64,000 nt of DNA, from contig JAPKZJ010000112.1 in NCBI GenBank assembly GCA_026393855.1, positions 1 through 64,000 of the forward strand, read 5' to 3'. A model generated the notes under the pieces. It made no database searches. It was not told the DNA's origin and saw nothing but the letters and a program-made list of their open reading frames with translations. Positions within the stretch are counted from its first letter, which is position 1, and every line of letters starts with the position of its first letter. The position numbers and the translations under genes were made by a program. Of this stretch, positions 25,513 to 58,593 are shown piece by piece. This DNA is from Candidatus Aminicenantes bacterium (GTDB lineage Bacteria > Acidobacteriota > Aminicenantia > Aminicenantales > UBA4085).

Positions 25513-28008
25513 ATGGATCGGATCAGCCTGCAGACCCGGCTGGCGGCCCGCGGCCAGGCCCCGCAAGGGAAGCGTCCCTTCCTCGTTCTGGCGGAGCTCG
25601 TCCCGGAGTCCGGTCATAGCCTGCGCGGCATCCGGGCCTTCCTCGAGTCCGCCGCCGGCGCTGCGGACCGGCTTCCCGCGGGATGCGAGCTGGCCGGCGT
25701 GACCATCCCGCAGAGTCCCAACGGCGTGGCCTCTTTAAGCCCGGCCGATGTCTTCGCCGTTCTCGACAAACAAGACCTGTGGGGCTCCCTCGACGTCGTC
25801 CCGCATGTCTCGGCCAAGGATCACAACGCCGAGGCGCTGAAGTCCTATTTATGCGGCCTGCGCGCGCTGGGGCTGGATTCCGTGCTGGCCCTGACCGGCG
25901 ATAAGCCGGCCTCGGCTCAAGGCGTCTTTGAGGTCGATGCGATCGGCTTGCTTGGCCTCATTCGCGACATCAACCACGCCTCCTGGGCGGCCGCCCCGCT
26001 TGGCCGCTTCGAGGGCGTCCCTCAATTCATGGCCATGGCCGCGGTCTCGCCGTTCAAATACACCGAGGCCTCCCAGCTTCAGCAGTACTTCAAGATGAAA
26101 AAGAAGCTCCGGGCCGGAGCCGGGGCGCTGATTACCCAAATGGGCTGGGATTCCCGCAAGAGCGAAGAGCTTTTCCGCTATCTGGGCGAAGAGGGGATCG
26201 ACGTCCCCGTATTCGGCAATGTTTATTTCTTGACCGCCCGCAATTCCTCGCCCCGGCTCATGGCCGAGGGCAAGCTCCCCGGCTGTTATGTCAGCCGGGC
26301 CCTGTTTAACGCCGTCTCGAAGGAGTCGGCGGCGGATACGATCGAGCGGGCCGCCCTGCAGACCGCCATGTATAAGGACTTGGGAGCGGCGGGAGTGGAT
26401 CTGGGCGGGTTTCCGGATTTCGAGACCCTGCCGGCGATTCTCCAGCGGGCGGAGGAGATCGGCTCCGATTGGCGGAACCGGCGGGATCGCCTCGATTTCG
26501 GGCCGGGCCGCGTCGTCGACGGATCCCCGACCTATTACCTTTATGATGAGGAGGGCTGCCGCCGCTCCGTCTCGCGGCCCCAAGCGACGGCTGGCAAGCG
26601 GATGTTCGACTTGACCCACCGGACTCTGATGACGCCGGGGCGAGGGGCCTATCCCGCCGTCAAGGCCGTTCTAAAAGCTTCGGCCTCGGTGCGCCGGGGA
26701 CAAGGCTTCCCTTACGCGTCGGTCTATGCGGCGGAAGCCGCCGCCAAGACCCTGCTCTTTGACTGCCAGGAGTGCGGGGATTGCTACCTGCCCGAGAACT
26801 TCGGGTTGTGCACGCTGGGGCGCTGCGCGAAGGGATTGTCCAACCCGCCCTGCGGCGACGCCGATCCGCGTGGCCGCTGCGGCACGAACCCGGACCGCAT
26901 CTGCGTCGGCGAGTCGATCTTTTTCGCTGCGGCGAGCGAAGGCCGCACCGGCCTGAAACGCCTCGAGGCGTTATCCAACGCCGATCGCATCCCGGCTCTA
27001 GCCCACACCGCCTCGATCCCGAACTACTATTTCGGCCGGGATCACGCCCGCCCGCGGGGCCTGATTCAGATCGGCGAACTGCTCCATGGCAGTATCCCCA
27101 AGACGGCCGCCGCCATGGCCGAGGTGCTTGCGACGGGGGAAGGCGGGCTCGATCGGCCGGGCGGGGCGCGCAATTATCTCCTCTCGCTTATCAAGGCCCA
27201 GATCCAACACAAGGCCGATTACATCGACGTCAACGTCGACGCCTTCGGCGGCTCCGACCTCGAGTTCCGGAAGCGGATGATGGTCGATTATGTACGTTTC
27301 ATCCGGACCTCCGCCGAGGGCCTGCCGGTCTGCGTCGACAGCGGCTCGCCGGAAGTCTTGGAAGCCGGCCTGGCCGCCTGGTACGACGGCGCCGCCTCCG
27401 GCCTGGCCGTGCCGCTGGTCAACGCCGTCAAGACCTACACCATGGACCGGCTCCTGCCTCTGCGGTCCCGCTTCGCCTTCAAGTTCATCGGCATGCTCGT
27501 GGACGAAAAACACGCCGGCCACGAAGGCGTCTACAGCTTCGCGGAGCTGCACGAGATGGCTCGCCAGCTGGTCCAAGCCGCGGTGGCCAACGGATTCCGA
27601 CCGGCCGACATCTTCATCGATTCGACGGTCTTCCCGCTGGCCATCGACATGCCCATGGCCCCGGATACGCCCGGCTACACCTATCGGACTTTCGAGACAA
27701 TCCGGCGGGTCAAGCGCGATCCCGCGCTTCGCGGCGTCCATCTCTCGCTCGGCGTCACCAACGCCGTGCGCGACCTGCCCGGCCGCAGGACCGGCGTCTG
27801 TCGGGCCTATTTGGCGATCGCCCGCCGCTGTGGGTTGGACGCGGCCATCGTCAACGTCATGCACGATTACGAGGACCATCCCGCCGCGCCCGAGCTCACG
27901 ACTTTCGTGGATGCTTTTGCCCGGCAGGACGGAAGCCCCCAAGCCGGCCAGCGGGCCATCGACGCGATGATGGAATTCTGCCGGACCAACCGCAAAAAGC
28001 GCTCCTGA
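25513..28008 (+). CDS. Fusion: MetF-type reductase + MTHFR_C + pterin-binding methyltransferase
   Basis: I read an 831-residue protein with three parts. Residues about 15-310 are a methylene-THF reductase (MetF) barrel with AELVPES and LTGDKP in place of the usual FEFxPP and RGD. Residues about 365-465 are an MTHFR_C/MetV-like domain with C418-x2-C421-x2-C424, then NPPCGDADPRGRC and further cysteines. Residues about 490-815 look like a DHPS-fold pterin-binding methyltransferase (YIDVNVDAFG, VCVDSGSPE, LGVTNAVRDLPGRR), as in AcsE and the folate module of MetH. The reaction would be methyl transfer between a corrinoid and THF, and oxidation or reduction of methyl-THF. Start 25513 has AAGGAG nine bases upstream; a TTG at 25426 is also open. 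No Rnf, Hdr or CODH genes are nearby. Confidence 0.85.
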   Translation: MDRISLQTRLAARGQAPQGKRPFLVLAELVPESGHSLRGIRAFLESAAGAADRLPAGCELAGVTIPQSPNGVASLSPADVFAVLDKQDLWGSLDVVPHVSAKDHNAEALKSYLCGLRALGLDSVLALTGDKPASAQGVFEVDAIGLLGLIRDINHASWAAAPLGRFEGVPQFMAMAAVSPFKYTEASQLQQYFKMKKKLRAGAGALITQMGWDSRKSEELFRYLGEEGIDVPVFGNVYFLTARNSSPRLMAEGKLPGCYVSRALFNAVSKESAADTIERAALQTAMYKDLGAAGVDLGGFPDFETLPAILQRAEEIGSDWRNRRDRLDFGPGRVVDGSPTYYLYDEEGCRRSVSRPQATAGKRMFDLTHRTLMTPGRGAYPAVKAVLKASASVRRGQGFPYASVYAAEAAAKTLLFDCQECGDCYLPENFGLCTLGRCAKGLSNPPCGDADPRGRCGTNPDRICVGESIFFAAASEGRTGLKRLEALSNADRIPALAHTASIPNYYFGRDHARPRGLIQIGELLHGSIPKTAAAMAEVLATGEGGLDRPGGARNYLLSLIKAQIQHKADYIDVNVDAFGGSDLEFRKRMMVDYVRFIRTSAEGLPVCVDSGSPEVLEAGLAAWYDGAASGLAVPLVNAVKTYTMDRLLPLRSRFAFKFIGMLVDEKHAGHEGVYSFAELHEMARQLVQAAVANGFRPADIFIDSTVFPLAIDMPMAPDTPGYTYRTFETIRRVKRDPALRGVHLSLGVTNAVRDLPGRRTGVCRAYLAIARRCGLDAAIVNVMHDYEDHPAAPELTTFVDAFARQDGSPQAGQRAIDAMMEFCRTNRKKRS

Positions 28009-45333: not shown

Positions 45334-45954
45334 ATGCTGGATAAGATTCAAGAGGCCCTGATGGCCGGCCGCAAGGCCGAGGTGGAAGCCCTGGTGGACC
45401 AGGCCGTGGCGGCCGGGATGACGGCCCGGCAGATTCTAAACGAGGGCCTGATCATCGGCATGGAAAAGCTGGGCGTGTTGTTCAAAGCCAACGAAGTCTT
45501 TATCCCCGAGGTCCTGGTAGCCGCCCGGGCCATGAACGCCGGTCTGACCAAGCTCGAGCCCCTGCTGATCAAGGAAAAGGTCGAGCCCAAGGGCCTGGTG
45601 GTCATCGGCACCGTCAAGGGCGACCTGCACGATATCGGCAAGAACCTGGTCGCCATGATGCTCAAGGGCGCCGGCTACAAGATCGTCGACCTCGGGGCCG
45701 ACGTGTCCGCCGACAAGTTCGTGGCCGCGGCCCGGGATAACAAGGCCGACGTGGTGGCCCTGTCGGCGCTCCTGACCACGACCATGATCCAGATGAAGGG
45801 TGTCGTCCAAGCGCTTCGCGACGCCGGTGTGACGGCTCCCGTCGTGGTGGGCGGGGCGCCGTTGACCCCGGATTACGCCGCCCAGATCGGAGCCGGCGGG
45901 TACGCGCCAGACGCCGCCAGCGCCGTGGACATCGTCTCGCGCCTGTTGAGCTGA
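45334..45954 (+). CDS. Corrinoid (B12-binding) methyl-carrier protein
   Basis: The 206-residue protein has an N-terminal helical cap domain (1-85) and a Rossmann B12-binding domain with D97-x-H99-x2-G102 (GDLHDIG), where His99 is the lower cobalt ligand. Then come LSALLTTTM and VVGGAPLT, typical of MtbC/MttC/MtvC and MetH cobalamin domains. It carries a methyl group between a donor-specific methyltransferase and a folate methyltransferase. No such enzyme is adjacent, but candidates occur in the window at 25513-28008 and 57442-58593. AAGGAG lies seven bases before the ATG. Confidence 0.93.
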   Translation: MLDKIQEALMAGRKAEVEALVDQAVAAGMTARQILNEGLIIGMEKLGVLFKANEVFIPEVLVAARAMNAGLTKLEPLLIKEKVEPKGLVVIGTVKGDLHDIGKNLVAMMLKGAGYKIVDLGADVSADKFVAAARDNKADVVALSALLTTTMIQMKGVVQALRDAGVTAPVVVGGAPLTPDYAAQIGAGGYAPDAASAVDIVSRLLS

Positions 45955-57270: not shown

Positions 57271-57405
57271 GATCGGTTCTTATCGATTCGGTTCGCTTGC
57301 ACTCTCAGGGTGCAGAAGCTGAAGGCTCGAAGGAAGGCAGGCTGGAAAAACGCCTAAAATTTGATGATACACGAAAAAGACGGCTGGCGAAAGCCGGCGA
57401 ACCGA

Positions 57406-57434
57406 TTGAAAACGCCCTCGGCCCGCGGCATAAT
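57406..57434 (+). promoter_or_regulatory. Promoter of the URO-D-family gene (leaderless)
   Basis: TTGAAA (57406-57411) and CATAAT (57429-57434) are 17 bases apart. The expected transcription start coincides with the ATG at 57442. No ribosome site is present. Confidence 0.55.
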
Positions 57435-57441
57435 GGCCTCC

Positions 57442-58593
57442 ATGACGGCCATCCTCCCCGAGACGCCCAGGGAACGCATGCGGATCGCCATGGCCGGAGG
57501 CCGACCTGCCCGAGTCCCCGTGATGTGCCAGATGAGTATAGGCCACATGCTCATCCAGGGCGGCGTTCGGCCGGAAGAGCTGTGGTTCGACGAGGACGCC
57601 TTTATCGAGACGCTGCGGAGCCTGCGGGCCCGGTATGAGTTCGACGGCATCCTGATCAGCCTGCACGGCCAGGCCCGGGATTGGGCCCGGGGGATCGTCG
57701 AAATCGTTCGAGAGGACGCGGGCGCCAGGGTCCGTTGGGCCGACGGGTCGGTAACGCTGTTTCCCCCGGACGATCTGCCCCTGCATCGGCCCGCGCAGGA
57801 CATCCGGCGGCCGGCCCTCGAAAGATTCAGCCCGGACTCTTTGCCCGACGCGCCGGACTACATTCCGGTTTCGCAGGGCCTGCGCTTCGCCCTTGACCCG
57901 GGCAACCTGACCGGCATCCATCGCCGGTTGCGGGAAGGGGAGGGGCAGGGGCTTTCTCTCCACGGGGAAGTGACTTCGCCGCTCGATTATTTCCTGGATC
58001 TGTTCGGGTTCGCCGAGGGGTTCTTGGCCTTGGCCGAGGATCCGGCCCGCGCCAAAGCCGTGTTGGAAAAACTGGCCGCGGGAGTGGCCCGGCTCGGCGC
58101 CGGACAGGCCAGAGCGGGTGTCGACGCCGTCAAGATCTCCTCGCCCTTCGCCGGGGCGGGCTTTCTTTCTCCCCGTCATTACCGGGAGTTCGTCGTCCCG
58201 TACGAGCGGATCGTGGCCCGGGCCATCCAGGCCGAGGGCGCGTTCGCCTACACCCACACCTGCGGTGCCATCGGGGACAGGCTCGAGCTAATGGCCGAAT
58301 CCGAAGTCGCCGGCCTCGAATGCCTCGATCCGCCGCCGCTCGGCAACGTCGAGCTCGAGGATGCCCTTGATCGAATCGGCAGCCGGATGTTCATCAAGGG
58401 CAACGTCGATCCCGTCCACACGCTTCTGTTTGGAGATCCCGCCCGGATCGCCGCCGATGTCCGCTACCGCGTGGACTTGGCCGCCCCCCGCGGCGGATTC
58501 ATCTTGAGCACGGCCTGCTCCATCGCGCCCCGGACTCCCCCGGAAAACGTCCTGCTCCTGGTCTCCCAGGTCCATTTACATAAATCCTATTGA
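57442..58593 (+). CDS. URO-D-family corrinoid methyltransferase
   Basis: The 383-residue protein has the uroporphyrinogen decarboxylase fold but carries the zinc-binding triad of methylcobamide methyltransferases: H272-x-C274 (THTCG) and C359 (TACSIAPRTPPEN). This matches MtaA/MtbA-type enzymes rather than true HemE. Such proteins move a methyl group between a donor and a cobalamin protein; the substrate is unknown. A start at 57442 agrees with a leaderless promoter; ATG 57433 is an alternative. The corrinoid protein at 45334 is a candidate partner. Confidence 0.85.
   Translation: MTAILPETPRERMRIAMAGGRPARVPVMCQMSIGHMLIQGGVRPEELWFDEDAFIETLRSLRARYEFDGILISLHGQARDWARGIVEIVREDAGARVRWADGSVTLFPPDDLPLHRPAQDIRRPALERFSPDSLPDAPDYIPVSQGLRFALDPGNLTGIHRRLREGEGQGLSLHGEVTSPLDYFLDLFGFAEGFLALAEDPARAKAVLEKLAAGVARLGAGQARAGVDAVKISSPFAGAGFLSPRHYREFVVPYERIVARAIQAEGAFAYTHTCGAIGDRLELMAESEVAGLECLDPPPLGNVELEDALDRIGSRMFIKGNVDPVHTLLFGDPARIAADVRYRVDLAAPRGGFILSTACSIAPRTPPENVLLLVSQVHLHKSY

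Follow-up and report, generated by a model that had tools for sequence, protein, structure and literature searches.

We found that a single gene of a Candidatus Aminicenantes bacterium encodes a chain in which a methylene-tetrahydrofolate (THF) reductase barrel (MTHFR, MetF), a cysteine-rich MetV domain and a methyl-THF:corrinoid methyltransferase barrel (MeTr) follow one another. The gene lies in the window, by which we mean the whole stretch of 64,000 nucleotides that was analysed. We consider it likely that the product is bifunctional, acting both as a methylene-THF reductase of the Fe-S (MetVF) type and as a methyl-THF:corrinoid methyltransferase, that it feeds a split methionine synthase in this organism, and that it is perhaps also used in reverse. 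We infer its activity, cofactors, electron donor, direction, corrinoid partner and channelling from domains, residues, gene neighbourhoods and partner families.

Three domains in one open reading frame

The frame runs from ATG 25513 to the stop codon at 28006-28008 with no internal stops. The gene and its domains are as follows:

25513-28008, + strand: MTHFR-MetV-MeTr fusion gene, 831 aa, ATG start, frame open from TTG 25426
25522-26457, + strand: MTHFR (MetF) barrel, residues 4-315 (Pfam, structural match, conserved residues)
26728-26943, + strand: MetV (PF12225) domain, residues 406-477, with eight cysteines at bases 26764-26904
27052-27999, + strand: MeTr barrel, residues 514-829 (NCBIfam and PDB matches, fold, residues)

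A first-pass annotation of this DNA had read three domains in this order in one chain, and the Pfam search agreed with it. We detected PF02219 at residues 92-250 (E = 1.2e-13, 51.5 bits, cut-off 24), PF12225 at residues 406-477 (E = 1.2e-13, 51 bits, cut-off 23) and PF00809 at residues 557-781 (E = 7.6e-9, above the gathering cut-off). No other Pfam family was found in the chain. The homocysteine and B12 domains are thus absent from it, which rules out MetH. Separate MetF and MetV subunits, as in enzymes of the MetVF type, were not observed, since both parts lie in the same ORF.

The third domain had been described as a methyltransferase of the dihydropteroate synthase fold. Its nearest relatives, according to NCBIfam and PDB matches, were indeed MeTr/AcsE and the folate domains of MetH; dihydropteroate synthase itself (FolP) was therefore ruled out. 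The fusion scored 30.7 bits with the model of the CODH/ACS methyltransferase (NF040758), below its cut-off of 370. The MeTr domain is a relative of AcsE and not an AcsE ortholog as modelled by NF040758.

Conserved residues and predicted fold

The Glu, Asp and Gln that serve catalysis in E. coli MetF (E28, D120 and Q183) correspond to E28, D130 and Q209 of the fusion. These were conserved in 59, 60 and 60 of the 60 homologues, respectively. D130 and Q209 were assigned by HMM alignment, while E28 was assigned by structural register and its conservation.

C418, C421 and C424, which the first-pass annotation had pointed out, are followed by five further cysteines (433, 438, 447, 456 and 464), and all eight were kept in 60/60 homologues. 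MetV of Clostridium ljungdahlii holds two [4Fe-4S] clusters (PMC8760232). Since the eight cysteines fit this number of clusters, two [4Fe-4S] clusters are expected in the fusion as well.

Residues D609, N637, D703, N750 and R758 correspond to D75, N96, D160, N199 and R207 of Moorella MeTr in a PDB sequence alignment, in which the register of N637 was adjusted by hand. D609 and R758 were invariant (60/60 homologues each), D703 was found in 58/60, and N637 and N750 in 55/60 each. The homologues that differ at N637 or N750 count against the explanation that we prefer.

The AlphaFold2 model of the whole chain had a mean pLDDT of 89.9 and a pTM of 0.89. Its residues 4-315 aligned with MTHFR structures (Z 24, rmsd 3.2 A) and residues 514-829 with MeTr structures (Z 28-29, rmsd about 2 A; Z 28.8 for 2e7f). 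No sequence match to the MetV part was found among solved chains, and therefore this part is known as a model alone.

Distribution and origin of the fusion

Twelve genomes of the family to which the organism belongs were compared, and ten of them, among these the source genome of the window (G000), had the three-domain ORF. The other nine copies were 48-81% identical to the window protein. In G004 the contig ends before the third domain, and G010 (76% complete) was without the fusion gene. GTDB genomes were scanned with two peptide patterns, so copies may occur in other phyla as well. The scan yielded 133 relatives, and we retained the 80 best. At 74 of the best 80 loci the fusion was a single ORF, spanning query residues from about 1-34 to 802-831, and most of the exceptions sit at contig ends. 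An assembly join or a frameshift between the parts was rejected, as homologous single ORFs occur in many independent assemblies.

These 80 loci come from MAGs of three phyla, represented by Aminicenantes, Planctomycetota and Kiritimatiellales. The fusion is thus not restricted to the lineage of the window, a possibility that the first-pass annotation had raised, and we rejected the idea of an oddity of one lineage. Viral contigs were also scanned for relatives of the fusion and none were found, so viral carriage was rejected.

Among 396 genomes of the same phylum, a match to the third domain was observed only in the four genomes of the own family in this sample, and 17 further genomes held the first two domains only (29-37% identity). 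Two-domain MetF-PF12225 proteins of other Acidobacteriota (L021-L037) share these domains, their order and this range of identity with the fusion, but the match ends before the MeTr domain and they stand outside the well-supported fusion clade. In the tree, made by a quick method and with long branches between the fusions and the outgroup, a branch with full support separated the fusions from the two-domain proteins. The Aminicenantes fusions formed one clade beside three Sedimentisphaerales, and the Kiritimatiellales clade was nested inside Planctomycetota. This topology fits a single origin followed by transfer between phyla, in one direction or another.

At one locus (L155, 5941-9575, + strand) another MeTr, encoded on its own, comes after the fusion gene, and the MeTr domain within the fusion scored just 21.6 bits. 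This looks like a take-over of its role by the separate copy.

Gene neighbourhoods in other lineages

In Kiritimatiellales we observed an operon of the order FolD - fusion - FocA - Fhs - corrinoid protein - RACo-type activator - DUF1638 - URO-D. This order is a composite of L135, L147, L154, L160, L162 and L163, and some loci lack some of these genes. FolD was found at L147, L154 and L163, a transporter of the formate/nitrite family at L160, L162, L163 and L171, and the gene of a URO-D-type methyltransferase at L135. A divergent AraC-type regulator was also seen at the Kiritimatiellales loci, with a PocR sensor at L160. The operon suggests oxidation of methyl groups with formate as the end product. 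MetH-like frames accompany the fusion in six Kiritimatiellales genomes, and therefore the fusion is not kept there for methionine synthesis.

In planctomycetes we found the orders corrinoid protein - Fhs - fusion (L134) and fusion - FolD - Fhs (L124). At L169, Fhs and the fusion are followed by genes of an NAD-linked formate dehydrogenase, namely two NADH-dehydrogenase-like subunits and the alpha subunit, the latter above its equivalog cut-off. The fusion gene lies beside Fhs in several lineages that are distinct in the tree, which links it to folate-dependent one-carbon metabolism. At 23 planctomycete loci (e.g. L116, L117, L138 and L164) a conserved gene of approximately 350 aa was seen on, or not far from, the upstream side of the fusion; on visual inspection its product resembles a thiamine synthase.

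Candidate partner genes in the genome and its family

The first-pass annotation had also listed a corrinoid protein and a URO-D-type methyltransferase in the window, and both were found:

45334-45954, + strand: MtgC-type small corrinoid protein (PF02607 and PF02310)
57361-58593, + strand: URO-D-type (MtaA/CmuA-like) methyltransferase, start uncertain, domain at 57922-58575

The family search detected small corrinoid proteins in G000. The one in the window was 51-53% identical to the fusion-adjacent corrinoid proteins of Kiritimatiellales and of planctomycete L134, and only about 37-45% identical to the counterpart encoded in the MttB cluster of its own family. Being closer to the former, it is the best candidate for the partner of the fusion. 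Its gene lies 17 kb from the fusion amid unrelated genes, and the fusion shares no operon with its proposed partners. The URO-D-type protein is a possible corrinoid partner, linked by family only. There were seventeen URO-D-family matches in G000 and from 0 to 16 in its relatives; this large and variable set may consist of corrinoid-linked methyltransferases. G000 (L085) and relatives also carry a cluster of APC permease - RACo-type activator - corrinoid protein - MttB homologue, which in part of the relatives is followed by a protein weakly similar to the MetH activation domain.

PF00809 matched a FolP candidate in G000 (contig C84), the fusion, and a MeTr next to a MetF-like gene:

G000 contig C57 (L002, 647-2313), - strand: stand-alone MeTr gene overlapping the MetF-like gene by 4 bases

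This pair is reminiscent of mtgD-metF2 in Ruegeria, and G001 has a similar one. Since it is a second, unfused version of both activities, the fusion is not the sole route in G000 and G001. In seven other genomes of the family (G003, G005-G009 and G011) the fusion was the only MTHFR and the only pterin-binding protein other than FolP that was found.

Statements on absence from whole genomes rest on family searches. In these, MetE (PF01717) was found in none of the 12 family genomes and MetH was not found in G000. A stand-alone homocysteine methyltransferase domain was present in 12/12 genomes, in G000 with the MetH-like zinc-binding motif GANC...GGCCG. G000 thus has separate homocysteine, corrinoid and pterin modules and no MetH was found, which is the gene set of a putative split methionine synthase. 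Because ACS, MetH and MetE were not found and the stand-alone homocysteine methyltransferase is present, the fusion probably feeds this split methionine synthase. The organism may be auxotrophic for methionine.

Absence of CODH/ACS from the window, as the first-pass annotation had it, extends for the ACS subunit (PF03598) to the whole of G000 (95% complete). This subunit was found in 0/8 genomes of the Aminicenantes family and 0/7 Kiritimatiellales, while ACS was present in 6 of 40 genomes tested, planctomycete MAGs among them. In the planctomycetes G413, G414 and G424, which have ACS, PF00809 matched FolP and the fusion only. The stretches read of their ACS operons contained a homocysteine methyltransferase gene, and no AcsE gene was found in them. 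An additional, separate MeTr was observed in G425 and G429. L217, L218 and L219 are planctomycete CODH/ACS operons with AcsE absent from the stretch read; in these operons a homocysteine methyltransferase gene adjoins a 358-aa gene without a Pfam match, and in L217 ACS is fused to a CdhD-family domain (1170 aa).

PF03599 matched in 8/12 family genomes. The only match in G000, CdhD-like at first sight, was identified by the equivalog cut-off as HgcA:

G000 contig C92 (L063), + strand: HgcA at 1210-2388 and HgcB at 2405-2680, both above NCBIfam equivalog cut-offs

Since both proteins pass these cut-offs, this Aminicenantes organism is predicted to be a mercury methylator.

Proposed mechanism and alternative explanations

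We propose that a low-potential carrier would deliver electrons through the MetV clusters to the flavin bound by the MTHFR barrel, where CH2=THF would be reduced to CH3-THF. From CH3-THF the methyl group would go, by way of the MeTr barrel, to the Co(I) centre of a small, separately encoded corrinoid protein, and linkage of the domains would raise the local concentration of CH3-THF. Coupling from methyl-corrinoid to the reductase in a single chain is chemically sensible, and the opposite flux, towards methyl-corrinoid, may occur. All steps would be reversible, with the net direction set by the partners in each lineage. In Aminicenantes, the fusion would charge the corrinoid protein and the separate homocysteine methyltransferase would then make methionine; in reverse use, methyl groups from MttB- or URO-D-type demethylases would return to THF. 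Tentatively, and with rather less confidence than in the bifunctional enzyme itself, we suggest that lineages differ. In anaerobic Kiritimatiellales and some Planctomycetota the fusion could be the core of a pathway that oxidizes methyl groups, taken from substrates by demethylation, to exported formate, with ATP formed at Fhs and without CODH/ACS, while in Aminicenantes it could have come to supply methyl groups to a methionine synthase whose parts are dispersed.

It is also conceivable, but rather unlikely, that the fusion is mainly oxidative in Aminicenantes too, and takes over methyl groups from corrinoid proteins charged by MttB or URO-D proteins, oxidizing them to methylene-THF from which formate or biosynthetic products would be made. 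Such a use agrees with the Kiritimatiellales operon, which holds Fhs, FolD, a formate transporter, a corrinoid protein, an activator and a URO-D protein, and with the presence of MetH in Kiritimatiellales genomes, which argues against methionine as the reason for the fusion there; the seventeen URO-D matches and the MttB cluster of G000 point the same way. However, the fusion-bearing genomes G003 (89% complete) and G006 have 0 and 3 URO-D matches, respectively, while the homocysteine methyltransferase was found in every family genome. The chance that one of the domains is catalytically dead and serves only docking or coupling of expression seems very small: L155, with its second MeTr and low-scoring fused domain, would fit, but the 60 homologues keep the catalytic residues of the two barrels almost without exception.

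We give hardly any weight to a role of the fusion in an acetogenic Wood-Ljungdahl pathway, as its methyl branch. G413, G414 and G424, in which the fusion was the sole MeTr detected alongside ACS, are what one would expect from it; in the Aminicenantes family, however, PF03598 was missing from all eight genomes, and the PF03599 match of G000 is HgcA. Donation of the methyl group to the corrinoid protein HgcA is the least probable of these explanations. HgcA and HgcB of G000 and the frequency of PF03599 in the family would allow it, but the methyl donor of purified HgcAB was reported to be S-adenosylmethionine (PMC11588087), for which reason we set HgcA aside as the methyl acceptor. Moreover, G007 and G009 (both more than 90% complete) carry the fusion without a PF03599 match.

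Comparison with known systems

Acetogens such as Clostridium ljungdahlii have a MetVF-type (type II) MTHFR in which MetF and MetV form two distinct subunits (PMC8760232, PMC8515935). The fusion shares with this type the MetF barrel, the eight-cysteine MetV domain and the absence of an NAD-binding module, but has both parts in one chain with MeTr. The reviewed MTHFR types I-IV include no MeTr fusion (PMC8760232). Separate MetF, MetV and MeTr parts, as well as MetF-MetV fusions, are already known. We searched the full text of open-licence PMC papers for the three-part chain and found no description, in line with the first-pass annotation, which knew of none; one may exist elsewhere.

AcsE/MeTr of Moorella and Carboxydothermus, the MeTr component of an O-demethylase (4o1e) and the folate domain of MetH have the MeTr fold (Z 28-29) and catalytic residues like those of the fusion. 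Unlike it, they stand alone or in MetH, without a joined MTHFR. According to excerpts of a study of Ruegeria pomeroyi (PMC12478193), MtgC and MtgD serve both methionine synthesis and demethylation, with metF2 downstream of mtgD. This system (MtgD-MetF2, MtgB, MtgC and MtgE) resembles the one described here in that a MeTr is encoded beside an MTHFR, one corrinoid protein is shared, and there are a separate homocysteine module and one of the MttB family. It differs in having separate genes and in belonging to an aerobe, and the excerpts do not mention a MetV Fe-S domain. In a figure legend of another paper (PMC5736913), the neighbourhood of metVF in Moorella and marine Chloroflexi includes a pterin-binding domain; such an arrangement is a plausible precursor state of the fusion.

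The fusion unites two adjacent one-carbon steps, which makes electron entry and possible channelling of methyl-THF accessible on a single expressible protein. Annotation of MAGs that looks for separate metF, metV, acsE or metH can overlook it. By such separate-gene annotation, several ACS-bearing planctomycetes seem to be without MeTr and Aminicenantes without methionine synthase.

MTHFR is also joined to a methyltransferase in the bifunctional homocysteine S-methyltransferase/MTHFR (PRK08645), but there the homocysteine domain is N-terminal, and MetV and MeTr are absent. In G002 (contig C17, 3.2 kb; L017 and L080) we observed a 683-aa frame with homocysteine methyltransferase and MTHFR domains, which is possibly foreign (contamination of this genome, 7%).
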